Assembly (NCBI GenBank): GCA_007695295.1
Contig: REEB01000214.1
Span: 1-61,507 of the forward strand
Source: Puniceicoccaceae bacterium
GTDB taxonomy: Bacteria > Verrucomicrobiota > Verrucomicrobiia > Opitutales > Opitutaceae
Length of the DNA: 61,507 nucleotides
Direction of reading: 5' to 3'
Under the pieces are notes generated by a model that was not told where the DNA came from, searched no databases, and saw only the letters and a list, made by a program, of their open reading frames with translations. Of this stretch, positions 227 to 16,525 are shown one piece after another; position 1 is the stretch's first letter; every line of letters begins with the position of its first letter. The position numbers and the translations under genes are program-made.

Positions 227-1540
227 TTATCCCCCGGTTTCGGGAGGCGGGGCACCGGCGGTGGTTTTGCCCGTGAGCCGGAAAGCCCCCACCATCACGA
301 GCGCTTCCATGAGAAAACCCAGCGCCAGGAGGGCGGCGGCCGCCCGGTGGTCGAGCAGGCCGGCCCCTTCGAGCAGCCAGGAGCCGAGGCCGATCGCACC
401 GATCCGGCCAAGGCTGCCCACGCCCATCCTGCGGGTGGTTTTCCGGATCATGGAGAGACCGTGGTAGTAGTTGCGGAAGCCCATCGCCAGCGGCACCAGG
501 CAGAGCACCAGAAAGGCCTCCCCGGCCCGCGCCAGGACTGCCCCTTCCACCCCGAGCAGGCCGGAAAACACCCAGCGGTGCAATGGAGTCAACGCCACCA
601 GGAGCATGACCAAGACGACCAGAACGAGCATCGCCACCATGAAGCGCCTCACCCCAGGTAGGTCACCGTCGCCAAAGGTCACCATAACATTGCGAAACTG
701 GTTCACGGGGTTGAAAAAGAGCATGCTGAAGTCGAAGGCGACCCGCAGGGCGGCGATGATGATGAGGGCATCCTCGGTCCGGCTGATGAAAAAGAAAATC
801 ACCGGCCGACTGAGGGCAAAAAAGGTGCTGGTGATCGCCACCGGCCAGAAAAACTGCCAGAGACCGGCCCAGTCCGGCTCGCGCACCACGCCGGTTTTAT
901 GGCGGTCCGGCAGCCGCGTGGCCAGCAGCCAGGTCATGGTGAGCGAAACCACCCCCGCCCCGAGCTGGCCCGCCCCCACTGTCCAAGGGGCGGAAAGTCC
1001 CATTTGAAACCCAGTCCACAGCCAGATCGACAGCAACGTCAGGTAAAGCACGTTGAGCGCGGTGACCGCCTTGGTGCGCTCGGCCCGGATCAAGCGGCCC
1101 ATGTGAAAGGCCTTCATCGCATCCAGCACCACCAGCGGCAGGAGCAGGCGGAGAAAAAGCACCACCCCCGGCAGGGCCTCCGGCTCGATCTGGAAAACCC
1201 CCGCGGCAAAATCCGCCCCGGACGAGGTCCAGGCCAGCCAGGCCAGCGGCAGAGTGAGCAGGCCGGAAATCACGAGCACAAAGCGGAAGACTTTCGCGAG
1301 GCTGGCCGCATCTTTGGCAAAAACCACCGTGAGTTGGGGCACGAAGATCAGCGCCGCATGCAACAACCCGTAAAAACTGGTCGCATACGTGAAGTGGGCC
1401 AGCTCGGCGGCCGCATCCGGGTAACGGGCCAAGGTGGCGTTCTGGAGCTGGCCGGCGATCAGGCCGGCGGCACCCATGAGGGTCAGCGGCCAGTAAAACC
1501 GCCAATAGCGGTCCCACCCAATCGGTTCCGATGCTGCCAT
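227..1540 (-). CDS. ANKH-like (progressive ankylosis family) multipass membrane transporter
   Basis: The protein has 437 aa and about 12 hydrophobic segments, so it is an inner-membrane transporter. From memory of vertebrate ANKH, several blocks match in the same order: an N-terminal aromatic RYW..YWPL block (ANKH HYWPL), DAMKAFHMG followed by a basic loop (ANKH DAMAWTHAG), FFWPVAITSTFFALSRP near the middle (ANKH FWWPLALILATQRISRP), and LVPLAMGFRNYYHGL near the C-terminus. Human ANKH exports ATP, pyrophosphate precursors or citrate and belongs to the MOP/MATE-like superfamily. The bacterial substrate is unknown. I chose ATG 1540 over upstream non-ATG starts because the preceding arginine-rich stretch looks non-coding. 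A lipid or polysaccharide flippase of the same superfamily is the alternative. Confidence 0.6.
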   Translation of the reverse strand: MAASEPIGWDRYWRFYWPLTLMGAAGLIAGQLQNATLARYPDAAAELAHFTYATSFYGLLHAALIFVPQLTVVFAKDAASLAKVFRFVLVISGLLTLPLAWLAWTSSGADFAAGVFQIEPEALPGVVLFLRLLLPLVVLDAMKAFHMGRLIRAERTKAVTALNVLYLTLLSIWLWTGFQMGLSAPWTVGAGQLGAGVVSLTMTWLLATRLPDRHKTGVVREPDWAGLWQFFWPVAITSTFFALSRPVIFFFISRTEDALIIIAALRVAFDFSMLFFNPVNQFRNVMVTFGDGDLPGVRRFMVAMLVLVVLVMLLVALTPLHRWVFSGLLGVEGAVLARAGEAFLVLCLVPLAMGFRNYYHGLSMIRKTTRRMGVGSLGRIGAIGLGSWLLEGAGLLDHRAAAALLALGFLMEALVMVGAFRLTGKTTAGAPPPETGG

Positions 1541-1654
1541 GAAAAACGACCACCCTGCCGACCCGCCCCATGCCCGGCAAGCCCGCCGCGCCGTCGCCAC
1601 GGCCCGGCGGACGCCCGTCTGACCAAACATCGAGGACGCGGCCTGACGTTTTGG

Positions 1655-1681
1655 TTAACCTAAATTGAAATCGCGTTAACA
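1655..1681. promoter_or_regulatory. Paired GTTAAC palindromes between divergent genes
   Basis: Two copies of the palindrome GTTAAC start at 1655 and 1676, 21 bp apart (two helical turns), in the short region between the minus-strand ANKH-like gene and the plus-strand TonB receptor. Paired palindromes spaced by whole turns often bind a dimeric regulator. This is inference from spacing only, and the intervening AT-rich bases could equally be promoter elements. Confidence 0.25.
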
Positions 1682-1715
1682 CTTTGGGGTTGCGGGCGCG
1701 GCGATCGGTTCGACG

Positions 1716-3590
1716 ATGCCCGCCATGTTGTCTCGTTTCCCGTTTTCATCCACCGTTGCCCTGCTGGGCGGACTCCTTCCGGCCGCGGCGGCCGTCGCGG
1801 ACTTGGAGGGCGACCCCCATGAGCTGCCGGCCTTCATCGCCACCGGCCAGCGCGTGGCCAACGAAGAGCCCGCCGGCACCTTCGCCATGCCGGTCAGCGC
1901 GCTGCGCTTTGAGCCGCTGGTCGACCTGCAGGCCCGCAATCTGGCCGAAGCCCAGGGCGATGTGACCATCCGGGGCGGTATTTTTGAGAATACCGGCTTC
2001 GCCGTCGGGGCGCTCAATCTCTTCGATCCGCAGACCGGGCACTACTTTGCGGAAATACCGATTTCTCCCGCCATGCTCTCTGGGCCGGAGATTCGCACGG
2101 GGCTGGACAACGCCTTTTCCGGCTTCAACAGCGCGGTCGGAACCGTGGGCTACCGTTTCCTGCCGATCGCCAGCCGGGGTGAGGTGTCCTTCGGGATCGG
2201 CGAGGGAGGGCTGCGGCGCGGCCGGCTGCTGGCGGCCCGGGCGCCGCGCGAGAGCGAGTCCTCGGCCCTGCCCGCCATCGACCTGGAAATCTCCCGCTCG
2301 ACCGCGGACGGGCTCATTGAGGGCGGCGACCACCGCTTCCACCGCTATGCCGTACGGGCCCAGTGGGACGGCCCGGCCGGGCGCACCGATGCCATCGCGG
2401 CCTACCAGTCGAAGTTCTTCGGCTGGCCCAACCTCTACACGCCCTTCGGCTTTCAGGAGACGGAAAACCTCCAGACCCGGCTATTCCTCCTCCACCACCA
2501 AGGGCGCCTCGACTCCGGTGGCACCTTCAGGCTCGGCGGCTATTTCCGCCGCCACAGCGATGATTATGAATTCGACCGCACCCGGCCCGGGCTGATCAAC
2601 CCCTTCGAGCATGAGACGGAGGTCTGGGCGGGAGCGGCGGAAGCGGAGCTGCCGGTCGGCGGGGACCGATGGCTGCGCATGCGCGGCGAGGCCTTGGCCG
2701 ATACGATCGAGTCCACCGCCCTCATCTTTGGCCGCTTCAACAGCCGGACCTACGGCCGGGGGGCGATGGTGCTGGAGAACCGTCCCGAGATTACCCCGGA
2801 GGGAGTGCACGGCTGGTCGGCCGGCGCTAGCGTCGACACCACCAACCGCGACGGGACCGCTTTTTCGCCGCTCGCGGGCTGGTGGTACGGCTGGCGGGAC
2901 CGGGAGGACGGGCTCTGGCAAGTGTCGCTTTCCGCCGCGCAGACCACCCAGGTGCCGGGCTATACGGCGCTCAACTCGGATCCAGCCTCAGGTCTCTTCC
3001 GCGGCAACCCCGGCCTCGGCCGGGAGCGAAGCCGCAACCTTGAAGCCGGCCTGGTGCGGGAGGCGGGCCCCTTCCGCTTGGAGACGGCCGCTTTTGTCCG
3101 GCGGGATTCTCCGCTGGTCGACTGGACCTTTGCGGAAGGCCAAACCGCCCGCTCCGCCAACCCGGTCCGGATCACCACCCACGGCCTCGAAGCCGTGGCC
3201 TGGAAGCAATGGGAGTGGGTCGACCTCGCCGCGGGTTACATGCTCCTCTCCAAAAGCGAGGACTACGGCGATGCCGAGGTCGATGCCAGCTACTACGCCC
3301 TCAACTATGCGCGCCACCGCGCCACCCTCGCGTTGATCGCCCGCCCCGCCGCGGGCTGGGAAGTCCGCATCGACAACAGCGTCCGCCTCCAGCAGCCGAA
3401 CAGCCTCCGGACCGAAGGCGGGCGCCGCTCCTGGCTGACGGCCGTCGGCGTACTCTACCGGCCGCCGGAGCATCCACAGTGGGAGTTTTCCGCCCGGGTT
3501 TCCAACCTCTGGAACGACAGCTTCCAAGACATCCCGGCCGTCCCCGCCGCCCCCCGGCAAGTCTCCGGCGGCATCGCGTGGCGGTGGTAG
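1716..3590 (+). CDS. TonB-dependent outer-membrane receptor
   Basis: The protein has 624 aa. A signal peptide (about residues 1-28, ending in AAAAVA) is followed by a plug-like domain: LVDLQARNLAEAQGDVTIRGG fits the plug pattern in which a short list of loci precedes D(V)TIRG. The remainder alternates polar and aromatic residues as expected for beta-barrel strands, with the paired phrases FRGNPGLGRERSRNLEAGL and the final SGGIAWRW at the C-terminus. It ends in Trp rather than the more usual Phe. Such receptors take up siderophores, vitamins or glycans across the outer membrane using TonB energy. The ligand is not readable here. Length and architecture resemble the shorter BtuB/CirA class. A second in-frame ATG at 1725 is possible. 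Confidence 0.8.
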   Translation: MPAMLSRFPFSSTVALLGGLLPAAAAVADLEGDPHELPAFIATGQRVANEEPAGTFAMPVSALRFEPLVDLQARNLAEAQGDVTIRGGIFENTGFAVGALNLFDPQTGHYFAEIPISPAMLSGPEIRTGLDNAFSGFNSAVGTVGYRFLPIASRGEVSFGIGEGGLRRGRLLAARAPRESESSALPAIDLEISRSTADGLIEGGDHRFHRYAVRAQWDGPAGRTDAIAAYQSKFFGWPNLYTPFGFQETENLQTRLFLLHHQGRLDSGGTFRLGGYFRRHSDDYEFDRTRPGLINPFEHETEVWAGAAEAELPVGGDRWLRMRGEALADTIESTALIFGRFNSRTYGRGAMVLENRPEITPEGVHGWSAGASVDTTNRDGTAFSPLAGWWYGWRDREDGLWQVSLSAAQTTQVPGYTALNSDPASGLFRGNPGLGRERSRNLEAGLVREAGPFRLETAAFVRRDSPLVDWTFAEGQTARSANPVRITTHGLEAVAWKQWEWVDLAAGYMLLSKSEDYGDAEVDASYYALNYARHRATLALIARPAAGWEVRIDNSVRLQQPNSLRTEGGRRSWLTAVGVLYRPPEHPQWEFSARVSNLWNDSFQDIPAVPAAPRQVSGGIAWRW

Positions 3591-3675: not shown

Positions 3676-4680
3676 ATGAAATCCCGCAGTCTGCTTTTCA
3701 CCGGCGTCGGCCAAGTTGAGTTGGCCGAAATCGAGCTTCCGGATCCGGCTCCGGACGAAGTGGTGGTGGAATCGGTCTTCACCTGCATCAGCCCGGGCAC
3801 GGAGCTGCGCTGCCTGGCGGGAAAACAAAACGGCAACCCGGAGTTTCCCTTCATCCCCGGCTATGCCTTGTCCGGAAGGGTGGTTGGAAAAGGCGCGGCG
3901 GTGAAATTGGCCGAAGGGACGCGGGTCTTTGCCTCCGGCACCCGGCGGGTGAACCGCAACCGTTGCTGGGGCGGCCACGTCGCCCATGCGGTCCTGCCCG
4001 CGGCCGAGGTGGTTCCGCTGCCGGAAAACATCGGCTGGCGGGAAGCCGCGAGCGCGAAGCTCGCCGCCATCGCCTACCATGGCGTGCGCCTGAGCCACCC
4101 CTACCCCCATGAGCGGGTCGCGGTGATCGGTCTCGGCTGCATCGGCCGGTTTTCCGCCCACCTCCACGCCCTCACCGGGGCGCGCACCCTGGCCACCGAC
4201 CTGAGCCCCCGGCGGCGCGCCTCCGCGGAAGCCGCCGGTTTGGAAGTTCGGGCCCCGGCCGATCCCCTCGCAACGACCTTCGCCTCCGAATGGCCGGAAG
4301 GCGCCGAGGTCGTCGTCGACGCCACCGGCTCCGGCCGGGCCTTGGAGCAGACCGCGGCCATGGCCCGAACCCGGCCTTGGGACAACCAGCTGCACCCCCA
4401 GGCGCGGCTCGTGCTGCAGGGCAGCTACGCCGCCGATCCGGTCCTTCCCTTTTACCAACTCTTCGGCCGCGAACTCCAAGCCCTCGTGCCGCGGGACTGC
4501 CAGCGCCGCGACATCGAGGCGGTGCTGGACCTGATGGCCCGCGGCCTGCTCCGGCCGGAAACCTTCATCGATGAGATCGATTCTCCGGAGAAAGCACCCG
4601 AAGTTTATGCCCAGCTCCGGGACCGCCCGGACGAACGGATCGGCGCGGCCTTCCGTTGGCGGGGCGACCCCGGCGCGTAA
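3676..4680 (+). CDS. Medium-chain dehydrogenase/reductase (zinc-type alcohol dehydrogenase superfamily)
   Basis: The protein has 334 aa. The N-terminal GroES-like domain carries CISPGTELRCLAG and FIPGYALSGRVVGKG, and the Rossmann fold follows with VIGLGCIGR (a GxGxxG nucleotide site). The family oxidises or reduces alcohols and polyols with NAD(P). The structural-zinc cysteine cluster of classical alcohol dehydrogenases is not visible, so it belongs to a shorter, atypical subgroup similar to proteins annotated as zinc-binding dehydrogenases in sugar-catabolism loci. I chose ATG 3676 because it follows GGAGG, although the spacing is very tight. It lies just upstream of the TPR gene and near the PhyH/UroD-like genes, so a role in degrading a sugar-like or cyclitol-like compound is plausible but unproven. 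Confidence 0.75.
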   Translation: MKSRSLLFTGVGQVELAEIELPDPAPDEVVVESVFTCISPGTELRCLAGKQNGNPEFPFIPGYALSGRVVGKGAAVKLAEGTRVFASGTRRVNRNRCWGGHVAHAVLPAAEVVPLPENIGWREAASAKLAAIAYHGVRLSHPYPHERVAVIGLGCIGRFSAHLHALTGARTLATDLSPRRRASAEAAGLEVRAPADPLATTFASEWPEGAEVVVDATGSGRALEQTAAMARTRPWDNQLHPQARLVLQGSYAADPVLPFYQLFGRELQALVPRDCQRRDIEAVLDLMARGLLRPETFIDEIDSPEKAPEVYAQLRDRPDERIGAAFRWRGDPGA

Positions 4681-4714
4681 TCATGCTTGGAGACCGCAGA
4701 CCCAGGCTCGCTGC

Positions 4715-5221
4715 ATGAGCGAATCCACCCCTCCCCCCGCCGGTTTCAACCTCCCCTGGCATCTCCGCCATGCCGAAGGCTGGCTGATGCTCGGCCGCTG
4801 CCGGGAAGCCCGCGAAGTGCTCGATGCCATCCCCTCCTCCCTCGCGGTCCGTCCGGAGGTGGCGATGCTGCGCCTCCAGCTCCACCAGGAGGAAAAGGAC
4901 TGGCCGGCGGCGGCCGTCCTCGCGGAGGCGGGGGCCCGGCGCGAACCGGGGCGGGTCGATTGGTGGGTGGCGTGGGCCTATGCGGTCCGCCGCAGCCGAT
5001 CCCTGCCGGAGGCCCGGGACATCCTCCTGGAAGCGGAGATCCGTCATGGCGGTGAGGCCATCATCCAGTTCAACCTCGGCTGCTATGCCTGCCAACTCGG
5101 CGACGCCGGGGAGGCGCGGCGGCGGGTCGAAGCCGCCATCGCCCTGCAGTCCGACTACCGGTCGCTGGCCCGGAATGATCCCGACCTCGAGCCGCTCCGT
5201 GCCTCGGGCTGGTCGCCCTGA
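4715..5221 (+). CDS. TPR-repeat protein
   Basis: The 168 aa protein consists of helical hairpins with the TPR signature: HAEGWLMLGRCREAREVLD near residue 19, LAEAGARREPGRVDWWVAWAY mid-protein, and FNLGCYACQLGDAGEARRRVEAAIAL near residue 120. TPR proteins are adaptors and no catalytic residue is present. There is no signal peptide, so it is likely cytoplasmic. It follows the dehydrogenase gene by 34 nt on the same strand. Its 3' end overlaps the convergent AraC-type gene by 67 bp, an unusually long overlap. ATG 4715 is preferred because the upstream in-frame stretch duplicates the end of the dehydrogenase gene in another frame. Confidence 0.75.
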   Translation: MSESTPPPAGFNLPWHLRHAEGWLMLGRCREAREVLDAIPSSLAVRPEVAMLRLQLHQEEKDWPAAAVLAEAGARREPGRVDWWVAWAYAVRRSRSLPEARDILLEAEIRHGGEAIIQFNLGCYACQLGDAGEARRRVEAAIALQSDYRSLARNDPDLEPLRASGWSP

Positions 5222-6039
5222 AATCCACCCGCCAGCCGGCGGCGGAACCGGCTCGGGCTCTCCTTCATGCGCCGCCGGAAGCGACGGGAGAAATAGAGCG
5301 GATCCCCGTAGCCGCACTGGTCCGCGACTTGGGCGATCGTGAGGGTGGTGTCGCGCAGCAGCAGTCCGGCCTGGGCCATTCTCATTTGCTCGGCAAAACG
5401 TTGGGGAGACTGCCCGACCTGCTCGCGGAATAGATGGCTCAAGCGTGGAGCGGAGAGGCCGCCGGCCCGGGCCAGCTCGGCCAAGGAAAAGGGACGGGAG
5501 AGATTTTGGGCCAGGTGGTCAATGACCCGCCGGACCCGCGGGTCCAGCCGCAGGGAGCGATCCCCGCGGGCCACCAAGTCGACCCGCAGGAGGCATTCTT
5601 CGAGCCGATTGAGGGCAAAGGACCGGGCGCTCGCCCACGGTCGCCGCGCCTCCGCCACCATTTCAAGCGCAGCCTGGCGCACCTGCCGGCGGAGGTCCGT
5701 CGCGGGCAGCGCGACCAGACCGATCCCGGGCTGCCACTGCGGCCAATGCAGGAGGGCACTCCAGTGCGGCCGCGGCTGGAAGTGCGCCCAGACCAGCTCC
5801 CAATGACCGGCACCGGGGGCGGTGCGGTAGGACTGACGGGCGCCGGGAGCATAGAGCAGCACTTCTCCTTCGCTGATATCCCGGGCCTGCCCGCGGAACT
5901 CGATCCGCCCCGTCCCCCGGAGCGTGAGGATGAAAAGGTAATCCCCGCTGCCCCGGGGACGCTCGGTGTGGTAGCGCGCCTCCTGGCGGAAGTGCCCGAA
6001 ACGAAACGAGTCGAAAGGCGGATCGGGTTCGTTCTCCAC
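5155..6039 (-). CDS. AraC family transcriptional regulator
   Basis: The 294 aa protein has an N-terminal cupin-like sensory domain (RGTGRIEFRGQ then GEVLLYAPGARQSY, typical of AraC arabinose-binding domains) and a C-terminal double helix-turn-helix: FSLAELARAGGLSAPRLSHLF followed by LTIAQVADQCGYGDPLYFSR and FRRRMKESPSRFR. The start codon is GTG. It is divergent from the PhyH/UroD-like genes, with about 100 bp between them, so it probably activates that pair in response to a sugar-like ligand (inference). Its C-terminal codons overlap the TPR gene on the other strand. Confidence 0.9.
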   Translation of the reverse strand: MENEPDPPFDSFRFGHFRQEARYHTERPRGSGDYLFILTLRGTGRIEFRGQARDISEGEVLLYAPGARQSYRTAPGAGHWELVWAHFQPRPHWSALLHWPQWQPGIGLVALPATDLRRQVRQAALEMVAEARRPWASARSFALNRLEECLLRVDLVARGDRSLRLDPRVRRVIDHLAQNLSRPFSLAELARAGGLSAPRLSHLFREQVGQSPQRFAEQMRMAQAGLLLRDTTLTIAQVADQCGYGDPLYFSRRFRRRMKESPSRFRRRLAGGFQGDQPEARSGSRSGSFRASDR

Positions 6040-6141
6040 AACCCCCCACGGGAGCAGACGGCATCGGGAGTGACAAGTTAATCCATGTTTTTGGCAGACC
6101 GTGCCATGGAAACTGAGGTCACTTTGGGCTAAACTTTGTCC
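6040..6141. promoter_or_regulatory. Divergent control region between araC-type gene and phyH
   Basis: This 102-bp spacer separates the divergent regulator and PhyH genes. It contains CCATG at about 6083 and CCATGG at about 6105, and several short T-rich stretches. AraC-type regulators usually bind imperfect direct repeats in such spacers. I cannot define the repeats with confidence. Confidence 0.3.
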
Positions 6142-6963
6142 ATGACCCCCGGCCCATCCTCTTCACTCACCAACCTGACCAAAGATCAGGTCAACGCCTT
6201 TCATGAAGTCGGCTACTGCATCGTGGACAACCTTTATTCGCGGGAAGAACTCGACGCCATCGAGGCGTTTTTCGAGGAGTTCAAATCCTGCGGGGAGTGC
6301 GTCTTCGATGCCGGCACGCGGTACGAGGAGCTGGACAAAACCAAGCAGCAGGTCCGCGCCATGCATCCGCACCGCCACAGCGCGCAGGCGAAGGACTGGG
6401 CGCTCAACCCCAAAGTCCTCGATGTGCTCGAAACCCTCTTTGCAAAGCCGCCCCTGCTCGCCCAAACGATGTATTATTTCAAGCCCCCCGGCAGCAAAGG
6501 GCAGGGCATGCACCAGGACAATTTTTACCTCGTGGTGAAGCCGGCCACCTGCATTGCGGCCTGGACGCCCCTCGACGATGCCGAGTTGGAAAACGGCTGC
6601 CTCTACGTCGCTCCCGGCTCCCACCGCTGCGACATTTTCTGCCCGGAGACCGGCACCGGGGCGTGGATGGAGTATGGCGACACCCACATCCGGCCCTTTC
6701 CGCGCGACTTCAAACCGGTGCCCGTGCCCGTGAGGCGCGGCCAGACGATGTTTTTCGGCGGTCAGCTCATCCACGGCTCCGGCCCCAACCGCCACCCCAC
6801 CCGCAGCCGCCGCACTTTCATCGGCCATTACATCGACGAGGCCTCCGACCAGGTGGCCCGCTTTTACCACCCGGTGCTCAACCGCCGCGGCGAACCCGTC
6901 AGCCACGTCGCGGTCGCCCAAGGAGGCGGTCCCTGCGGCGACGGCGCCGGCGCGCTGCACTGA
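6142..6963 (+). CDS. Phytanoyl-CoA dioxygenase (PhyH) family Fe(II)/2-oxoglutarate oxygenase
   Basis: The 273 aa protein shows the complete PhyH iron site: H124-x-D126 (GMHQDNFY), the distal H211 (LIHGSGPNRH) and a 2-oxoglutarate-binding arginine at about 223-224 (RSRRTFIGHY). The phrase NGCLYVAPGSH precedes the second half, as in most family members. These enzymes hydroxylate unactivated carbons with O2 and 2-oxoglutarate, and in bacteria they act on many small metabolites besides phytanoyl-CoA. It is followed 29 nt later by the UroD-like gene and is divergent from an AraC-type regulator, an arrangement seen in planctomycete and verrucomicrobial genomes. The start is ATG 6142. The TTG six bases upstream is less likely. 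Confidence 0.88.
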   Translation: MTPGPSSSLTNLTKDQVNAFHEVGYCIVDNLYSREELDAIEAFFEEFKSCGECVFDAGTRYEELDKTKQQVRAMHPHRHSAQAKDWALNPKVLDVLETLFAKPPLLAQTMYYFKPPGSKGQGMHQDNFYLVVKPATCIAAWTPLDDAELENGCLYVAPGSHRCDIFCPETGTGAWMEYGDTHIRPFPRDFKPVPVPVRRGQTMFFGGQLIHGSGPNRHPTRSRRTFIGHYIDEASDQVARFYHPVLNRRGEPVSHVAVAQGGGPCGDGAGALH

Positions 6964-6992
6964 GTGAACGGGGCCGGCGGCGTTTTACTTTT

Positions 6993-8147
6993 ATGACCAT
7001 TGCCCCACTGCAACCCCCCTGGCCGGGCACCCTGACCCCCCGGGAACGCTTCCGTCGCCAACTCCACCGCCAGCCCGTCGACCGCTGCTTCAACATGGAG
7101 TTCGGCTACTGGAACGACAACTTCGTCCGCTGGCCAATCTTCCGAGAGCACGGCATCCGCAGCAACGAGGAGGCGGATCGATTTTTCAACTTCGACCCCG
7201 TGGCCACGGTCGGCTCTCCGTGGATCTGCCCGGCCTTTCCCGAAGAGGAAATCTCCCGCACCGACGCCACCCGCATCCTCCGCAATTCCGACGGCCTGCT
7301 CGCGGAAGTGCCGCTGGACGGCCACGACACCATCCCCCACTTCATCGAATCCTCCATCCAGTGCCCGGCCGACTGGGAAAGGATCAAACACGAGCGTTTC
7401 GATCCGGACCATCCCGGCCGCCGGCCCGACCTCGCGGGCTGGAGTGTGCGCCATCCTCCCGACCGCACCTATCCCCTCGGCGTCAACTGCGGTTCGATGA
7501 TCGGCAAAGTGCGGGATCTTCTCACCGTCGAAGGACTTGCCTATGCCATCGCCGACTACCCGGAGATGGTCGAGGACATGGTCGAAACCTCCTGCGTGCT
7601 CGTGGAGCGGTTTCTCGATGCCGTGCTCCCGGCGCTCGCATGCGACTTCGCCTCCGGGTGGGAGGACATCTGCTGCAACTCCGGCCCGCTCGTGCCGGTG
7701 GACTTTTTCCGCTCCGTCGTCGTGCCGCGGTATCAGAGGATAAACGAAAAGCTGCACCGGCACGGCATCGACCTGTGGTGGGTGGACTGCGACGGGGATG
7801 TCCGGCCGCTCATCCCCCATTTTTTGGCCGGCGGGGTCAACATCCTCTTCCCTTGGGAAGTCAACGGCTCCGGCCATCCCGGCGAGGCCCTCGACCGGTG
7901 GGGGCCGGACCTGAAAATAATGGGCGGAGTGGACAAGATGGCGCTCCTGAAGGGTCGCGATGCCATCCGCCGCTGGCTCGACTCGCTGGCGCCGTGGGTG
8001 GAACAAGGCGGCTTCATCCCCTTCTGCGACCACCGCTGCCCGCCGGATGTCGATCCGGATGACTATCTTTTCTACCTCGAGCTGAAGAAGGATCTCTTCG
8101 GGCGGATCCGCACCCATCCATCCGGAGCCGGTTCGCCCGCGGGATGA
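6993..8147 (+). CDS. Uroporphyrinogen decarboxylase-like (UroD superfamily) protein
   Basis: The 384 aa protein begins LTPRERFRRQLHRQPVDR, the usual start of UroD-like proteins (RERv..al.hqepDRvP). Later it has YPEMVEDMVE, a DCDGD motif, FLAGGVNILFPWEV and GGVDKMAL, which match the beta strands of the UroD TIM barrel. Classical UroD residues for porphyrin binding are not evident, so this is one of the many UroD-superfamily proteins outside heme synthesis, some of which are corrinoid or methyl transferases. It is co-directional with the PhyH gene (29 nt gap), so the two probably act on one pathway. It has no signal peptide and is cytoplasmic. Confidence 0.82.
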   Translation: MTIAPLQPPWPGTLTPRERFRRQLHRQPVDRCFNMEFGYWNDNFVRWPIFREHGIRSNEEADRFFNFDPVATVGSPWICPAFPEEEISRTDATRILRNSDGLLAEVPLDGHDTIPHFIESSIQCPADWERIKHERFDPDHPGRRPDLAGWSVRHPPDRTYPLGVNCGSMIGKVRDLLTVEGLAYAIADYPEMVEDMVETSCVLVERFLDAVLPALACDFASGWEDICCNSGPLVPVDFFRSVVVPRYQRINEKLHRHGIDLWWVDCDGDVRPLIPHFLAGGVNILFPWEVNGSGHPGEALDRWGPDLKIMGGVDKMALLKGRDAIRRWLDSLAPWVEQGGFIPFCDHRCPPDVDPDDYLFYLELKKDLFGRIRTHPSGAGSPAG

Positions 8148-8291
8148 CGTTGGAGACCCGTGTCCCTCCGGAGGTCCACGGCGACGATCCGGGGGGTGGG
8201 TCACCTTTTTGAGGGAGCAAAGTGCGACCCTGCAGCCGGCCATCCCGGCCAATGGCGGCATTTCGGCTCAGCGCCTGTCCCTGACCTCAGT

Positions 8292-8370
8292 TGTAGCGAA
8301 CGGGTTTATGCCACGGCTTCCGGGGGCCGGATTACAAAGCGGGGATCGCGGGGTAAACCCGCTCGCTACA
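8292..8370. repeat. REP-like imperfect inverted repeat
   Basis: The left arm TGTAGCGAACGGGTTTA (8292-8308) and right arm TAAACCCGCTCGCTACA (8354-8370) are reverse complements over 17 bases with one mismatch, and weaker pairing continues inward (GCC.CGG against CCG.GGG). The 79-bp unit sits in a 254-bp spacer with no gene. The form is that of a REP/BIME or small MITE. I see no second copy in the window. No transposase is nearby. Confidence 0.6.
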
Positions 8371-8401
8371 GCCCGCCCCACGGGCAAGGCAAGCGGACGG
8401 T

Positions 8402-9601
8402 TTAGGGATGGCGGGGGCGAAAATCGGTTTCGTGGGCGCGGAGCAGGCTGTGCAGTTCACGGGCCGGGTCGTGGGTGGAGAGGGCGGGATGCCCGGCGGC
8501 GACGGCGGCGGCTTCGACCAAGCCCCAGGCCACGTGGCGGCGGTCGGTCACGTGGGCCAGCCGGTCCAGCGCTTCGCGGAAAACCCGCAGGGCGGCCCGG
8601 GAATGACCGGACTCTCCAAGGTGGCGGGCCAGGGCGAGGAGGGTCTCCACCGCCACCGGGGGGTGGATGTCTTCCGCGGCCAGGAGTGCATCGGTGGCCA
8701 GCCGACCCGCCTGCTCCTCCTGCCCGCGGCGGTGAAAGACCCGGGCCCCCACGGCCAGGGCCGGCGCCCGCAGCGGCGTGGCTTCGAGCCGGCGCAAGTC
8801 GTCGAGGACGGCGGCGGCCTCATCCAGCTCGGCCCGGGCTTTCAGCCGCAGTAGCAGCACCTCCGGCGGGGCGTCGACGGGGATGACCGCCAGCAGTTCT
8901 TCAGCTGTATCGGTTTCTTCACTACGGGCAAGCAAGAGGGCAAAGGCGGCCGAAGCCTGGGCGCGGCTTTCCGGGGAGAGGCCCCGGAGATTGGCGAAGT
9001 CGCGGGCGAGGGCGGCGCGGTCCTCCATGGAAACGCCGCCGTGGCGCCGACGGCCCTCGACGAGGGCGATGCGCGCCAAGAAGTGTTCGCCGGGGTCGGC
9101 GATGGTGGCGGCAAGGTCGACTGCGGCGGCTTCATCTCCGAGGGCGGCGCGGACGGCGACCTCTTCGCGCCGAGCCGCAGCGTCGGTCGCATCCGCTGCA
9201 TCGGTATCGATAAAAAAGGCGGCGGCGGGGAGGAGGCCGGTTTCGGCCCGGGCGCGGGCGCGGGCGCGTTCGAGCAAGGACTCGTCCCAGGCCGGCCAGG
9301 GATGTCCGAGAAAGCCAAACTCACCGGACCGCAGGCCGGCGGCGGCGGATGAATGGGGGAAGTCCCGCAGGACGGCCTCCACTCGTTCCCGGCCGCGCTG
9401 GTAGTGCCGATCGGCCTCGCGGAAGCTGAGCGCCTCCATGAGGAAGGCTTCCTCGAAGGCGCGGCGGGCCTGGAGGAGCAGGGTGGCGGCCTCGATCTCG
9501 GGATCGGGCGCGCATCCCGGACCGGCGAGCAGGCCGGCCAGGAAAAGCGCCGGCAGCAAGGGCCGGAAGAAGCGCGGCGAAGAGGCGGCAAACACCCGCA
9601 A
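8402..9601 (-). CDS. Probable lipoprotein with TPR-like helical repeats
   Basis: The product has about 399 aa. A hydrophobic signal segment (FRPLLPALFLAGLLAGPGC) ends in a cysteine near residue 30, giving a relaxed lipobox, so an outer-membrane or periplasmic lipoprotein is likely. The rest is alanine-rich helical pairs (ERARARARAETG, TAEELLAVIPVDAPPEVL, FREALDRL) resembling degenerate TPRs. I do not recognise a named family. It lies 48 nt downstream of phoU on the same strand, so it may be the last gene of the phosphate operon. The start is uncertain: TTG 9601 or GTG 9595. Confidence 0.65.
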   Translation of the reverse strand: MRVFAASSPRFFRPLLPALFLAGLLAGPGCAPDPEIEAATLLLQARRAFEEAFLMEALSFREADRHYQRGRERVEAVLRDFPHSSAAAGLRSGEFGFLGHPWPAWDESLLERARARARAETGLLPAAAFFIDTDAADATDAAARREEVAVRAALGDEAAAVDLAATIADPGEHFLARIALVEGRRRHGGVSMEDRAALARDFANLRGLSPESRAQASAAFALLLARSEETDTAEELLAVIPVDAPPEVLLLRLKARAELDEAAAVLDDLRRLEATPLRAPALAVGARVFHRRGQEEQAGRLATDALLAAEDIHPPVAVETLLALARHLGESGHSRAALRVFREALDRLAHVTDRRHVAWGLVEAAAVAAGHPALSTHDPARELHSLLRAHETDFRPRHP

Positions 9602-9649
9602 AGCCTAGGCAACAGACGGCAATCGAAGCAACTCCGCGAGGCGGACAGG

Positions 9650-10342
9650 TCAGTCTCCGCTGCCGTGGTCCAGCTTGGCCTGCTTGATTTCGGGATCGTG
9701 GCTGATGTTCTCCCCCTTGACGAGGAAGACGACCTCTTCAGCGAGATTGGTGGCGTGGTCGCCGATGCGTTCGAGGGATTTGGAGACGAACATCAGCTCG
9801 AGGGCGGTGGTGGTGTGGGAGGGTTGGTCGGCAATGGTGCCGGCAAGGTGGCGGTAAATTTCCTTGTTAAGCCGGTCCGCCTCGGCGTCGCGCGTGCAAA
9901 TCGCAATCGCCTTCTGCTCATCGCCGGTGAAAAAGCACTGGAGGGCGTCCCCGAGCATTTCGAGGACGGTGTCGGCGAGTTTGCGCAGCTGCTCCTCGAT
10001 GCCGAGGCCGGAGAATTCGCCGATGGCGAGGCTGCGCTTGGCGATGTTGGTGGCTTCGTCGCCGACGCGTTCGAGGTCATGGCTGGCTTTCATCGCGACC
10101 ATGATGAGGCGGAGGTCGGAGGCTACCGGCGACCGCAGGTTGAGAAAACGGATGCCCTCGGTGTCGATCTCGGTTTCGAGGCGGTCGAGGGCGTCGTCCT
10201 CCGCGATGACCTTTTCGGCGGTTGCGCGGTCGTTCTGGAGGAGGGCGCGGATGGCGAGGCGGACGGCCTCGTTGGCGAGGCGCCCCATGGTGGTGAGATG
10301 CTCGCGGAGCAGGTCGAGTTCTTCGTCGAAGAAGCGTTTCAT
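9650..10342 (-). CDS. phoU: Phosphate signalling complex protein PhoU
   Basis: The 230 aa protein is a two-fold repeat of three-helix bundles with the PhoU metal-site motifs: HDLERVGDEATNIAKRS in the first half and KSLERIGDHATNLAEEVVF in the second (E/DxxxD). PhoU links the phosphate state of the Pst transporter to PhoR and represses the Pho regulon when phosphate is abundant. Its place directly after pstB (22 nt) is the standard order. The length is typical. ATG 10342 is the only sensible start. Confidence 0.97.
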   Translation of the reverse strand: MKRFFDEELDLLREHLTTMGRLANEAVRLAIRALLQNDRATAEKVIAEDDALDRLETEIDTEGIRFLNLRSPVASDLRLIMVAMKASHDLERVGDEATNIAKRSLAIGEFSGLGIEEQLRKLADTVLEMLGDALQCFFTGDEQKAIAICTRDAEADRLNKEIYRHLAGTIADQPSHTTTALELMFVSKSLERIGDHATNLAEEVVFLVKGENISHDPEIKQAKLDHGSGD

Positions 10343-10364
10343 GGATGGTGGTGGCGGACGGCGT

Positions 10365-11186
10365 TCAGCCGAAGCGGCCGGAGACGTAGGCCTCGGTCTG
10401 TTTGTTGGTGGGGTTCATGAAGACCTGCTCGGTTTCGCCGTATTCGATGAGCTTGCCGAGGTAGAAGAAAGCGGTGCGGTCGGAGACGCGGGCGGCCTGC
10501 TGCATGTTATGGGTCACGATGACAATGGTGAACTCCTCCTTAAGCTGGTGGATGAGTTCCTCGATCTTGCCGGTGGCGATGGGATCGAGGGCGGAGCAGG
10601 GCTCGTCCATGAGGAGGATTTCGGGCCGGTTGGCGATGGCGCGGGCGATGCAGAGGCGCTGCATCTGGCCGCCGGAGAGGCCGAAGGCGCTCTCCTGGAG
10701 GCGGTCCTTGACCTCTTCCCAGAGGGCGGCGCTTTTGAGGCTGCGCTCGACGGTTTCATCAAGCTCGGACTTCTTGCTGCGGCCTGCCACGCGCAGGCTG
10801 TAGACGATGTTTTCGTAGATCGACTTTGGAAAGGGGTTGGACTTCTGGAATACCATCCCGATGCGTTTGCGCAGGGAAATGACCTCCAGGTACGGGTCGT
10901 AGATGGAGTGGCCGTCGATGGTGATGTCGCCTTCGTGGCGGATGCCGTCGATGAGGTCGTTCATCCGGTTGAGGTTGCGCAGGAGGGTGGACTTGCCGCA
11001 ACCGGAGGGGCCGATGAAGGCGGTGACCTCTTGGTGAGGGATGTCGAGGTTGAGGTCGAAGAGGACCTGGGCTTCGCCGTAGTAGAAATTGTAGTCGAGG
11101 ATCCGGATGAAGTCAGGCTGGGAACTGCTGGCTTCGGCGCCGGCGGCCTTCGGTTTGAAAAGGGACTGCTGAAACGGGTTGCTCAT
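10365..11186 (-). CDS. pstB: Phosphate ABC transporter ATP-binding protein PstB
   Basis: The 273 aa protein has Walker [10 protein letters not shown] at 59-67, a Q loop in [16 protein letters not shown], the ABC signature LSGGQ at 170-174, Walker B LLMDEP at 191-196 and a switch His at 226 ([13 protein letters not shown]). The FPKSIYENI stretch is characteristic of PstB. It energises phosphate uptake through PstC/PstA. An N-terminal extension of about 20 residues is longer than in E. coli. It lies between pstA and phoU. Confidence 0.97.
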
Positions 11187-11202
11187 GGTGGACGACGCTG
11201 GT

Positions 11203-12924
11203 TCAGAACGCGGAGGAGGTGAGTTTGCGGCGCAGGTGGTTGCGGATCATAATAGCTCCGAGGTTGAGCACGATGACAAGGAGGATGAGCATGAGGGTGG
11301 AGGCGAAGACGAGCGGTTTGGTCGCCTCGGTGTCTGGCGACTGAAGGGCTACGATGTAAATGTGGAAACCCAAATGCATGAATTTGCGGTCGAGGTGGAC
11401 GAAAGGGAACATACCGTCAACGGGCAGGCTGGGGGCGAGCGCCATGACCCCGACGAGCAGCAACGGCGCGACCTCGCCGGCGCCGCGGGCCATGGCGAGG
11501 ATGAGGCCGGTGAGGATGCCGGGGCTGGATGCGGGCAAGACGAGGCGCTGGATCGTCTGCCACTTGGAAGCACCGCAGGCGAGCGAGCCCTCGCGCACCC
11601 CGCGCGGCACGGCGGCGAGCGCCTCCTCGGTGGCCACGATAACAACCGGTACTGTCATAAGGGCGAGCGTGAGCGATGCCCAGAGGATGCCACCCGTGCC
11701 GAAGACGGGGGTGTTGATGGCCACCATGCGCGGGTAGAAAACCATGTCGATGACCGCGCCTACTTCGTGGATGAAGAACCCGAGCCCGAAAACGCCGAAG
11801 ACGATCGACGGCACTCCGGCGAGATTGTTGATCGAAATGCGGACCGCGCTTACGAGCGGCCCCTGTTTGGCGTATTCGCGCAGATAAACGGCCGCGAGCA
11901 CCCCGAACGGCGTCACCGCCAAGCTCATGAGGACAGTCATGACAAACGTGCCGAAGAGTGCGGGGAAAATGCCGCCCTCGGTGTTGGCCTCACGCGGATA
12001 ATCGGTGATGAACTCCCAGATTTTGAAGAGAAACCAGCCAATGCGCTGGAAGAGTCCCTTCTTGTTGGGGAAGTAGAAATTGATGACGTCGCCAAGGGGC
12101 TGGACGCGCTCGGTGCCGTCGATGAGCGTGAACGCGAGGCTGTGTTCGCGCTGCATGCCGCGCAAGAGCGCGCTCTGCTCCATGAGGGGACGAATCAGGC
12201 TCTCGATCTCGTCGATACGCTCCACGCGGCTGGCACGCTCGGCCTGCTGGGCGGGGGTGGGATCCTCCAGTGAGTCGAGGTAACGGACCTCGAGGCGTTC
12301 GCGGCTCATGCGCGCGTTGAGCCGGCCGATCTGCGACCTCTCGATGCGGGTGATGGTGGCGCGTCGCTCGCGCACCTCGTTGACCAAGGTGCGGAGTTGG
12401 CGGGAAAAGGAGGGATCATCCGCGGCGATGATCATGCCGTCGCCGAGGCGAAGCTCTTGCGGGCGCACGATAGCGTTGCCCCACTCGGTGCGTTCGAGGA
12501 CGAGCATGTCGTCGGGGTAGGTGATGCCGACAATGTCGCCCATGTTGAGGAAGGCGAAATTGCGGTTGGCGAAGACATCGCGGTTGCCGGTATAAACTTG
12601 CATTTCCCGCATGTAGTCCGGGTCTTCGATGGCGAGGTCGATGAGATCGGCATTGCCGGGAGAGAGGTTTTCCGGAGTGAGGGCCAGCCGCGCCATGATC
12701 ACGCCGGCAACGAGCTTTTGGTCACGAAATTCCGTCCGTCCGACGGGGTCGAGCTCGATCAGGGCGACGCGTTTGGGCCAGAAGAAGTTAAGTCCGTTCC
12801 AGAGGATGACGGCGAGGAGAAAGCCGATCATGAACAGACCGATGGCCAGGCCAACGCCGGAGACCCAGACCCAGACTTCGCCCACGGGGCGTATGTTTTG
12901 TCCGAAAGGGTTTGCTGTTTTCAT
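11203..12924 (-). CDS. pstA: Phosphate ABC transporter permease PstA, extended form
   Basis: The 573 aa protein is about twice the length of E. coli PstA. A first membrane helix ([24 protein letters not shown], about residues 15-45) is followed by roughly 240 residues of mostly charged, partly coiled-coil sequence (for example [21 protein letters not shown]), then the canonical permease core with [26 protein letters not shown] and the EAA loop [30 protein letters not shown]. The insert probably faces the periplasm, given that it follows one helix. ATG 12924 is preferred over upstream codons because the preceding arginine-rich region is outside the homologous part. Confidence 0.93.
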
Positions 12925-12962
12925 GCTCCGGTTATTCCGGGAGAAATGTATCCGTGGCGAAA

Positions 12963-15299
12963 TTACTCGACGGCGCGGTAGCGGCGCCGCAGCCACTGCC
13001 GGAGGATCTCGGCGATGGTGTTAAGGGTGAAAGTGAAGACGAATAGGATGAAGGCGCAGAGGAAGAGCGTGCGGTAGAGGGTGCCGTTTTGCTCGGCCTC
13101 GGAAATCTCGACCGCAATGTTGGCCGAGAGCGTGCGCATGCCGGTGAAGGGGTTGAAGTCCTGCACGACCGAGTTTCCGGTCGCCATGACCATGATCATA
13201 GTTTCGCCGATGGCGCGACCGAAGCCGATCATGAGGGCGGAGAAGATGCCAGCGGCGGCGGTGGGGAGGACGATGCGGATGGCGGTCTGCCAACGGCTGG
13301 CCCCGAGGGCGAGAGAGCCCGAGCGGAATGCGTTGGGCACGTTGCTCATCGAGTCCTCGGAAATGGTGAAGATGATCGGGATGACGGCGAAGCCCATGGC
13401 GAAGCCGACGACGAGGGCGTTGCGGGTCTCGAAGTCCCACCCGAGTACGTTCACCACCCACATCCGGAAGGAGCCCACCTCGCGTTCGAGCAGTTCGTCG
13501 TATTGGAGGAACATCCAGTTTTCCACCACTTGGCCTAAATGCCAACCGAGCCAAGCCACGAACATGGCTGGCACGAAGACGAAGACGAACTCCATGCCGC
13601 TCGGCACGCTGAGACGTATGCGGTTGGGGAGCCGGCTCCAGACCAACCCCATCAGGATGGCGCCGAGAAAGACCCCGAAGGTGCTCATCATGACCGAGGG
13701 CACGGCGTTGCTGATGAGAGGAGAGAGCCACATACCAGCGAAAAACCCGAGAATGACCGACGGAAGCGAAGCCATGATCTCCATAGTCGGCTTGACCACT
13801 TTCTTAAGTGAAGGCCGAAGAAACTGAGAAACGTAGATGGCCGAGAGCAGGGCGACGGGCACGGCGATGAACATCGCGTAGACGGTGCCTTTGAGGGTGC
13901 CGATAATGAGCGGGACCATGGAGAGCTTGCGCTCGAAGTCTGCCCCGCCGTCGGATTGCCAATCGTAGATCCGTCCGGGCCGGCCCTCGTATTGGATGCG
14001 CGTGAAGTAGGTCCTGAAGCCGGCGATGGGGTGCTCGTCCTTCATCGGCTTTAGATGGAGATTGCCTGTGCTGTCGAGGAAGAGCAAGGCGTTGAAGCGG
14101 GGAGCAATGAGGGCTTGGCGGACCGGGAAACCGAGGGCGGCCTCCCAGCGCACCGCCTCGGTGGTCATAAGGGTGAGGCGGGCGTGGTCGCCGGCGGTGG
14201 TGAGAAAGGTTTTGTTGCGACGGCTGACCGAAAAAGTGTCGGGTGGCCCGGGTAAAGGCCGAAATTCTTTGCTGGGAATGTAGCGGCGGCGGGCCTCTTC
14301 TTCAAGGTAGGCCAGATTCCAGCCGACGTGGCGGCCGGCGGCGTCGAAAAAGATCACGGTCTGGTCGCCGAGGACGAACTCCATGCGCTTGATCGGCGTT
14401 GCGGAGCCGGGTTTGTCGTGGTCGGCTGGTTCGGGGAAAGGGACGAAGGTCTGGATGTGGTTGAGGGTGCCGCCGGCATCGATTTCGAAGTAATCGACTT
14501 GGCCGCTGGGGTAGGCTACGAGGACGGAGTCGGCGGCATCCGGGACAAGCAGATCGCTGGGGCGGTCTCTTAGTTCCTCGCGCAGGGTGTAGCGCTGGCC
14601 GATTTGCAGCGGTCCTAGGCCGAAGGGAGTTCTCCGCTGCGTGAGGGTGGCGATGCGCACGACCGGACCGGTTTCCGTTTCTTCGACGGCGGCAAGCAGC
14701 CGCCGGGCTTGGGCACGCGCATATGAGACGTGATCAAGAGGCCGGCCGTCTTCGCCCAGTTCGATAACCGGGAGGGATTCGATGGAGGGCTGGATCATCC
14801 GCACGCCGCGGCCACCGGGAAAGGTGGGTTCGTAATGGATTTCGTGGACGAGGACCCGGCCGTCGATGGACGCGAAGATCACCCGGTCGCGCAAGGCGTC
14901 GTGCGTGAAGGAGGCAATCTCGAAATCAGGGGGTGTGTCGTACGGAAGGGTGAACACTCCACGGCTTTCGTGGTGCTTGTCGGGGCTTTCCAGATCGACG
15001 AAGACAAGGCCACCGTCCTCGTCCAGAAAATACGGTACCTCCTTCCACTCATCGATACCGAAGCCGACGAACGGTTTGTCGGGCACCTCCAAGACGAGTG
15101 CCTCGCCCACTTCGGCACCCTTGAAGAGCGGGGCCACCTTGAACCCGATGAAGACAAAAATGAAGAAGACCGCGATGATGATCGAGATGCCCCCGACCAT
15201 GATCAGGCCGGTCATCAACCGGTCGGCGAACAAGGTCGCCGGAGAAACGCGGAAACGCTCGGCAATGGGCGGCTGCTGGCGGCGCGGCTTCGGTTTCAT
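12963..15299 (-). CDS. pstC: Phosphate ABC transporter permease PstC, extended form with large insert domain
   Basis: The 778 aa protein has a TM helix near residues 28-55 (LIMVGGISIIIAVFFIFVF), then a soluble region of about 380 residues with beta-rich, propeller-like sequence (DGRVLVHEI, DQTVIFFDAAGRHVGW, GNLHLKP), then the permease core starting LSMVPLIIGTLKGTVYAMFIAVPVALLSAIYVSQF. The core has the EAA loop FRSGSLALGASRWQTAIRIVLPTAAAGI and GETMIMVMATGN, which are PstC hallmarks. Long PstC proteins of this type occur in several Gram-negative groups, and the role of the extra domain is unknown to me. It partners PstA, PstB and PstS. ATG 15299 lies just after the pstS-pstC hairpin. Confidence 0.93.
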   Translation of the reverse strand: MKPKPRRQQPPIAERFRVSPATLFADRLMTGLIMVGGISIIIAVFFIFVFIGFKVAPLFKGAEVGEALVLEVPDKPFVGFGIDEWKEVPYFLDEDGGLVFVDLESPDKHHESRGVFTLPYDTPPDFEIASFTHDALRDRVIFASIDGRVLVHEIHYEPTFPGGRGVRMIQPSIESLPVIELGEDGRPLDHVSYARAQARRLLAAVEETETGPVVRIATLTQRRTPFGLGPLQIGQRYTLREELRDRPSDLLVPDAADSVLVAYPSGQVDYFEIDAGGTLNHIQTFVPFPEPADHDKPGSATPIKRMEFVLGDQTVIFFDAAGRHVGWNLAYLEEEARRRYIPSKEFRPLPGPPDTFSVSRRNKTFLTTAGDHARLTLMTTEAVRWEAALGFPVRQALIAPRFNALLFLDSTGNLHLKPMKDEHPIAGFRTYFTRIQYEGRPGRIYDWQSDGGADFERKLSMVPLIIGTLKGTVYAMFIAVPVALLSAIYVSQFLRPSLKKVVKPTMEIMASLPSVILGFFAGMWLSPLISNAVPSVMMSTFGVFLGAILMGLVWSRLPNRIRLSVPSGMEFVFVFVPAMFVAWLGWHLGQVVENWMFLQYDELLEREVGSFRMWVVNVLGWDFETRNALVVGFAMGFAVIPIIFTISEDSMSNVPNAFRSGSLALGASRWQTAIRIVLPTAAAGIFSALMIGFGRAIGETMIMVMATGNSVVQDFNPFTGMRTLSANIAVEISEAEQNGTLYRTLFLCAFILFVFTFTLNTIAEILRQWLRRRYRAVE

Positions 15300-15309
15300 C
15301 GGTGAAGAA

Positions 15310-15342
15310 ACAAAGAGGGATGCCGGTGGTGGCCGGCATCCC
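15310..15342 (-). terminator. Intercistronic hairpin between pstS and pstC (attenuator or stabiliser)
   Basis: On the minus strand a perfect 10-bp stem (GGGATGCCGG paired with CCGGCATCCC, 15317-15326 and 15333-15342, loop of 6) is followed by TCTTTGTTTCTTC. This has the form of a leaky intrinsic terminator. It would protect the pstS message and lower pstC read-through, matching the need for excess binding protein. Confidence 0.65.
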
Positions 15343-15363
15343 GAAACAGCATGGAGAATCGGG

Positions 15364-16326: not shown

Positions 16327-16412
16327 AGTAGAGATGACGATTGATCGTTGAGAGGTGGGTGAAACCCATGGCGATTGCCCGAGGGCAGCCTGCCCTCTTG
16401 GATTACGCCCCC

Positions 16413-16456
16413 ACTCTAGCAGGCAGATGTGACGCAGGTATGGCTGGAGTGTTACA
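16413..16456 (-). promoter_or_regulatory. Pho-box-like array and -10 element upstream of pstS
   Basis: On the minus strand, heptamers TGTAACA (16450-16456), AGCCATA (16439-16445) and CGTCACA (16428-16434) follow each other at exactly 11-bp intervals, like the E. coli Pho box (TGTCATA repeats with 4-bp linkers). A -10-like TAGAGT (16413-16418, preceded by TGC) lies 9 nt further on. PhoB-phosphate is expected to bind here and activate pstS. Confidence 0.7.
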
Positions 16457-16525
16457 AAACCGAAAAACAACCCCTTTGATCGGCGGATCCGACCCGGGCA
16501 GAGCAGTCTTGCGTCCTGACTGGGC

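Follow-up and report, generated by a model that had tools for sequence, protein, structure and literature searches.

Described systems and the locus

The genes considered here, an AraC-type regulator facing a PhyH oxygenase and a UroD-superfamily protein, lie in a 61,507-nt stretch of DNA (REEB01000214.1 of GCA_007695295.1; "the window", to which all positions refer). The nearest described regulatory system is E. coli araC–araB, in which the araI1-I2 operator has direct TCCAT-type half-sites 21 bp apart (GC-N7-TCCATA and, 21 bp on, GC-N7-ACCTGA), followed by the -10 box TACTGT at +20 and by the araB start 61 nt past the operator. On the enzyme side, the UroD superfamily contains the soluble coenzyme M methyltransferases MtaA and MtbA and the phenolic O-demethylases OdmB and VdmB, and PhyH proteins are typified by PHYHD1 and the phytanoyl-CoA dioxygenase family. 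Type 1 mlp clusters (Kountz and Balskus, 2023; PMC10418091) likewise combine UroD-superfamily proteins, a corrinoid protein and an activase. In that paper, the Mlps of these clusters carry His-Cys-Cys and are read as S/Se-methyltransferases, in genera described as obligate anaerobes. The authors also present His-Cys-Cys as the mark of S-methyltransferases in the superfamily, and describe O-methyltransferases in which carboxylates or non-coordinating residues replace one or both cysteines.

Compared with these systems, the window locus combines a predicted arabinose-type switch with a UroD-like protein whose candidate metal site carries carboxylates. The conserved unit consists of AraC, PhyH and the UroD-like gene only, and grouping goes beyond chance for these three alone. 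The explanation that we favour, to which we give about an even chance, is that the UroD-like protein is an O-methyl:corrinoid methyltransferase joined to an AraC–PhyH switch that senses a sugar-like compound.

Recurrence of the pair

PhyH searches returned 33 of 384 genomes of the class at E ≤ 1e-40, and 30 loci were kept. AraC is divergent from PhyH in 23 of these, usually without UroD, and a UroD relative lies directly downstream of PhyH in three (G000, G021, G421). Searches with the UroD-like protein matched 24 of 177 genomes of the order (30 loci kept), with a close PhyH directly upstream in five loci (G000, G021, G175, G147 and G139). Gene-neighbourhood comparison thus places the pair in six genomes from four genera, one comprising G021, G139 and G175 and the other three represented by G000, G147 and G421. 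The G147 pair consists of a close PhyH (66% identical) and a distant UroD (33%), and the G421 pair of a distant PhyH (44%) and a close UroD (60%). Scanning 84,980 species genomes by pattern yielded 355 relatives of UroD; the top 80 share 60–74% identity, and their record titles include Opitutae, Victivallis, Kiritimatiellae, Planctomycetes, Chloroflexi and Clostridia. For these best 80 (the 80 UroD loci below), neighbourhoods of up to 8 kb per side were covered, many contigs being shorter; a close PhyH is present in three, all from G139, G021 and G175. PhyH–UroD adjacency, on which the initial annotation had built, therefore recurs yet is rare. Nothing on the pairing was noticed in the literature searched, where work on PhyH and UroD was human or mouse by title. 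As a side observation, a remote PhyH (25%) immediately precedes a remote UroD (24%) in L020 (G055, 1504–3334), whose genome has MtaB and two RACo matches.

The two genes also co-occur at the level of genomes. Counting both genes in the same genome, adjacent or apart, across the 384 class genomes, PhyH is present in 6 of 8 genomes with a close UroD (E ≤ 1e-150) and in 27 of the 376 others (p 6e-6), in 9/20 UroD genomes at E ≤ 1e-40 against 24/364 (p 7e-6), and, among RACo genomes alone, in 9/19 UroD genomes against 3/52 (p 2e-4); these p-values are too small because related genomes were counted one by one. The converse is weaker, as 24 of the 33 PhyH genomes are without the UroD family, and 11 of the 20 UroD-family genomes are without PhyH of the window type. 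Even so, co-occurrence across genomes supports the pairing that had been proposed from the window alone.

AraC control of the pair

The AraC gene (5155..6039, minus strand, GTG start) is divergent from PhyH (6142..6963, plus strand) across 102 bp, and the UroD-like gene (6993..8147, plus strand) follows PhyH after a spacer of 29 nt (6964–6992); the coordinates bear out this gap and orientation as initially annotated. AraC has an arabinose-AraC-like sensor domain and an AraC HTH domain, both above Pfam cut-offs. In the sensor, R27, Y71 and W84 align with R38, Y82 and W95 of the solved E. coli AraC, residues with a role in arabinose binding. Among 13 PhyH-linked AraCs, R27 and Y71 are invariant and W84 is nearly so, and the NCBIfam arabinose-AraC model (NF007860) matches all 13. 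This resemblance fits the earlier suggestion that the compound may be sugar-like, and we treat a sugar-like inducer as the probable class.

A 36-bp operator motif upstream of PhyH, obtained with a Gibbs sampler from 26 distinct loci, has a strength of 26.1 bits, partly raised by shared descent of the upstream regions; shuffled upstream regions gave 11.3–12.1 bits (single base) or 12.1–15.8 bits (dinucleotide, approximate). The predicted window operator (6073..6108, plus strand) has two direct half-sites 21 bp apart (TCCAT ... GCCAT) and a matrix score of 32.9, as a member of the training set, with the runner-up in the 61.5 kb at 12.7. A pattern search of the window's own genome allowing up to one mismatch gave 30 matches, of which the window site and another on contig C199 are exact, and the surroundings of the 29 matches other than the window site score at most 14.4 by the operator matrix. 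Apart from the three with PhyH, the 80 UroD loci have no strong operator site (next best 21.0).

The distances downstream of the operator are conserved as well. Of 25 loci, 19 have a TAnnnT box starting at +20 to +22 past the operator, where 1000 rounds of shuffling gave 1.2 on average and never more than 5; 22/25 have an ATG at +32 to +36. In the window, the -10-like box TAAACT (6130..6135, plus strand) is 21 nt past the operator and 6 nt ahead of the PhyH ATG. Because the ATG and the -10 box sit at similar distances past the operator in most loci, the PhyH message is predicted to be leaderless, with its ATG at the predicted transcription start.

This layout is shared with pBAD: the half-sites are in the same register as in E. 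coli araI1-I2, and the -10 box is 20–21 nt past the operator in both. There are also differences. PhyH loci retain the GC of the E. coli half-site only in part (G in 19/25, C in 10/25), the E. coli site scores just 0.3 bits by the operator matrix (rank five within 701 bp), and the window AraC scores 190.9 bits against NF007860, under the curated cut-off of 208. Moreover, the window AraC faces PhyH–UroD whereas E. coli AraC controls araBAD, and PhyH starts 33 nt past the operator rather than 61 nt. Judged by sequence, AraC/pBAD-type control, marked by a -10 box preceded by direct half-sites with 21-bp spacing, is supported, and the AraC control that had been proposed for the locus gains from both the conserved operator and the promoter geometry.

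Several AraC arrangements outside this pattern were seen. L059 (G291) has the operator upstream of PhyH, with no AraC found within 1.5 kb. An AraC-family gene adjoins UroD divergently, without an intervening PhyH, in 12 of the 80 UroD loci (L137, L138, L140, L143, L151, L158, L169, L174, L182, L185, L186 and L190), from Victivallis, Clostridia and other records. In a sensor-domain profile, the UroD-divergent AraCs of Bacillota/Clostridia in L138, L182, L185 and L190 score 31–54 bits, and all other AraCs without a PhyH link score at most 17.6 bits; the four higher scores may reflect general AraC_binding resemblance and were not used as evidence.

The UroD-like protein

The UroD-like protein scores 18.2 bits against Pfam URO-D, under the gathering cut-off of 23.9. 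Its AlphaFold model (pLDDT 90.2, 59 sequences) matches HemE (1j93; Z 23.1, rmsd 3.6, 306 aligned) and MtaA (4ay8; Z 20.0, rmsd 4.2, 306 aligned), and the next fold match drops to Z 12.7, a MetE-type protein. The weak Pfam label is borne out because the predicted fold is that of UROD/MtaA; the protein is a member of the UroD superfamily, with a modelled UROD-type barrel over most of the chain. Neither its sequence nor its profile gave a PDB match to MtaA or HemE entries, and matches to SLC12A2 PDB entries (E 0.09 at best) were taken as chance.

RQAGR(Y) is the N-terminal porphyrin-site motif of HemE. This motif is absent from the UroD-like protein, which reads NMEFGYWNDNF there, and a full HemE with RQAGRY is encoded elsewhere in the same genome (contig C16, E 4.6e-110; WIMRQAGRYLPEY). 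Retained porphyrin-site residues, which the initial annotation had named as a finding that would tell against it, are thus not seen for the HemE arginine motif.

The MtaA-type zinc-ligand motif, His-x-Cys ... Cys, is also not found in the protein. In an alignment via intermediates (HTDG, HCDG, HSDG, DTDG), D265-x-D267 ... H347 fall at the MtaA-type ligand places, so that D265-C266-D267-G268 ... D346-H347 replaces H-x-C-G ... G-C; across 59 sequences, D265, D267 and H347 do not vary. The comparison with MtaA-type active sites suggested earlier therefore ends with His-Cys-Cys replaced by an aligned Asp-Asp-His, from which we infer an Asp-Asp-His metal site. The fold, the corrinoid setting and the equivalent metal-site positions are shared with MtaA and MtbA, and the differences are the ligand set and the lack of a sequence match to MtaA PDB entries. 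OdmB and VdmB are comparable by expected chemistry, in which a corrinoid protein receives the methyl group of an O-methyl donor, and, following PMC10418091, by the carboxylates of O-methyltransferase sites; unlike for these enzymes, no aromatic context was seen. We consider that the UroD-like protein probably strips methyl groups from small molecules, and predict it to be a corrinoid-linked O-methyltransferase. A methyltransferase role rather than one in heme synthesis, as first proposed, agrees with the missing HemE motif and with the RACo co-occurrence and corrinoid gene clusters described below.

The PhyH oxygenase

PhyH matches PF05721 with 116.3 bits (cut-off 22), and its metal triad (H124-x-D126 ... 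H211) is invariant in 8 sequences, as in Fe(II)/2-oxoglutarate oxygenases. The best PDB matches are 2opw and 2a1x; the predicted model is of low confidence (pLDDT 32.2, three-sequence alignment). The triad is shared with PHYHD1 and the phytanoyl-CoA dioxygenase family, from which the window protein differs in being bacterial and predicted to be AraC-controlled, and in its HPHR and GGGPCGDG motifs. In L036 (G139, 89–634), a deletion within PhyH is in frame, decay and misassembly being indistinguishable.

Corrinoid-associated genes

RACo is present in 71 of the 384 class genomes, including all 8 with a close UroD (E ≤ 1e-150) against 63 of the 376 others (p 1e-6), and 19 of the 20 with UroD at E ≤ 1e-40 against 52/364; the relatedness of the genomes makes p-values too small here as well. 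Of a further 50 genomes, which supplied the less similar of the best 80 UroD loci, 44 also have RACo. Within 8 kb of UroD, corrinoid-protein relatives are found in 16/80 loci and RACo in 14/80; of the corrinoid-protein loci, 13 come from records titled Opitutae, Opitutaceae, Cephaloticoccus or Verrucomicrobia. The window's contig has no corrinoid-protein or RACo match. In the same genome, RACo, DUF1638, AraC, a corrinoid protein and MtaB are together on contig C222, which holds both the only RACo match and the only short corrinoid-protein match. L091 (G421, 5293–16799) has RACo, DUF1638, UroD, PhyH / AraC, PocR/AraC, MtaC, UroD, MtaB and UroD in one stretch, which sets the pair and its AraC within the MtaB cluster, flanked by RACo/DUF1638 and MtaC/MtaB.

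G421 and G066, the latter a genome of the window genome's own family, group UroD-superfamily proteins, a corrinoid protein and an activase in a way that resembles the Type 1 mlp clusters described by Kountz and Balskus (2023; PMC10418091). The combination that marks such a cluster (Mlp2, Mlp3, a corrinoid protein and Ram/RACE together) was not found in the window, where the pair instead joins a UroD-like protein with a carboxylate site to an oxygenase and adjoins no cluster of this kind. Separately, L115, L117, L121 and L123–L132 have several UroD-superfamily genes, a corrinoid protein and RACo beside a close UroD; in these 13 loci, DUF1638 is present in 8 and a homocysteine-methyltransferase-like gene in most.

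MtaB is present in all six pair genomes, compared with 21/384 across the class; among 15 genomes tested, it was also found in G157 and not in the other eight. As a general partner of the UroD subfamily MtaB is not supported, and methanol is not the subfamily's general theme, because MtaB is present in only 10 of the 50 further genomes. For PhyH, RACo is present in 12/33 PhyH genomes against 59/351 overall (p 0.01).

Favoured explanation and alternatives

The explanation given at the outset would work as follows. An arabinose-sensor-type AraC would bind the 21-bp direct-repeat operator of the divergon and, with a sugar-like inducer present, switch on a leaderless PhyH–UroD transcript. PhyH would act as a Fe(II)/2-oxoglutarate oxygenase, and the UroD-like protein as a metal-dependent methyltransferase moving methyl groups from an O-methyl donor to a corrinoid protein, the likely partners in the same genome being the corrinoid protein, RACo and MtaB on C222. 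The distribution is best read as an AraC–PhyH switch in scattered genomes of the class, whose promoter also drives UroD in a few lineages that have methanol methyltransferase. Because control is shared, the pairing is repeated and the genes co-occur, we infer that the oxygenase and the methyltransferase serve the same substrate by oxygen-dependent and oxygen-independent routes. A more specific version is very unlikely in our estimation: one AraC switch would open two routes for using a methylated sugar's methoxy group. When oxygen is present, PhyH would hydroxylate the methoxy-bearing carbon, the hemiketal giving a ketone and methanol (to MtaB); without oxygen, the UroD-like enzyme would move the methyl straight to the same corrinoid protein.

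Several observations weigh against the favoured explanation. For the pair itself, besides the rarity of adjacency, the G147 pair is without AraC within 1.5 kb and without an operator, and the paired PhyH of G139 is without residues 46–158, metal motif included. For the metal site, hhalign set C266, not D267, on the MtaA-type cysteine (3% probability). For the corrinoid link, no corrinoid gene is beside the pair in the window, 64 of the 80 UroD loci have no corrinoid-protein relative within the stretch covered, and 6 of the 50 further genomes are without RACo, whose background rate was taken from the class only. No RACo was found in G175 (93% complete), and neither RACo nor a corrinoid protein in G015 (64% complete). 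MtaB is present in only 3/8 close-UroD class genomes, besides the low count in the further UroD genomes, and every class genome with MtaB has RACo anyway (21/21). RACo is present in only 3 of the 12 genomes with the closest PhyH; the association of PhyH with RACo comes only from the UroD genomes since, with these left out, RACo is present in 3/24 PhyH genomes against 49/340 (p 1.0).

Two alternatives keep the methyltransferase and place PhyH differently. First, in a sequential pathway, PhyH would hydroxylate a methylated compound and the UroD-like protein would then demethylate the product. The operon order PhyH–UroD with its 29-nt gap and one AraC operator, the pairing in four genera and the genome-level co-occurrence would all suit such a pathway; we nevertheless consider it unlikely, as PhyH is missing in 2/8 close-UroD and 11/20 wider-set class genomes, and a close PhyH is near only 3 of the 80 UroD loci (genome-wide PhyH searches covered the class). 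With so many UroD genomes and loci lacking it, PhyH seems not to be needed for making the UroD substrate. Second, a UroD corrinoid methyltransferase for an unrelated donor could have landed behind the AraC–PhyH promoter, the target of PhyH being different. Such promoter capture is a real rival to the one-compound reading, although its own probability is low. It would explain why 24/33 PhyH genomes are missing the UroD family and why PhyH does not track RACo outside UroD genomes; against it stand pairs formed by two lineages of PhyH (44% identical) and two of UroD (33%), MtaB in 6/6 pair genomes, and co-occurrence with the genes apart (G066, G380 and G458).

The MtaB count can also be taken in another direction. 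The UroD-like protein could be an MT2, with folate or homocysteine as acceptor of the methyl that it would take from a methyl-corrinoid protein made by MtaB; the fold is shared with MtaA, the coenzyme M MT2, and MtaB is in every pair genome. This is quite unlikely in our view, since other UroD proteins with MtaA-type HICG ... GC, in the same genome (C85) and in G421, fit an MT2 better, and MtaB is absent from 40 of the 50 further UroD genomes while RACo is present in 44. Finally, despite a fold match to HemE at Z 23.1, we rejected a heme-synthesis role, and an ordinary heme uroporphyrinogen decarboxylase is scarcely credible for a protein that is without RQAGRY and under the Pfam cut-off, in a genome with a full HemE on C16.

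The locus gives a testable handle on two unassigned systems: the AraC–PhyH switch, and a UroD-superfamily branch whose best 80 relatives (60–74% identical) extend from Opitutae as far as Clostridia and Chloroflexi. If the pair does act on one methylated sugar, oxygen-dependent and corrinoid-dependent demethylation would be present in a single operon.

Neighbouring genes

All five ORFs of the initial annotation are in place, and its five-gene grouping stands for AraC, PhyH and the UroD-like gene. The other two genes were rejected as members of the unit, neither being conserved beside PhyH or UroD. The first encodes a medium-chain dehydrogenase (3676..4680, plus strand; ADH_N, with the best NCBIfam match, BchC, far under its cut-off) and the second a TPR protein (4715..5221, plus strand), whose gene overlaps the AraC gene by 67 nt at the 3' ends. 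Within 8 kb of UroD, a dehydrogenase relative is found in 1/80 loci and a TPR relative in 0/80, and around PhyH (±1.5 kb) no relatives of either were found in the 29 class loci besides the window's own. Elsewhere in the window, 1716–3590 is a long ORF that has no Pfam match (E ≤ 0.001) and by eye is outer-membrane receptor-like. On the minus strand, 9650–15461 has phosphate uptake-like genes by eye, in the order PhoU, PstB, PstA, PstC, and 6864–8261 is a 465-aa shadow ORF antisense to UroD.

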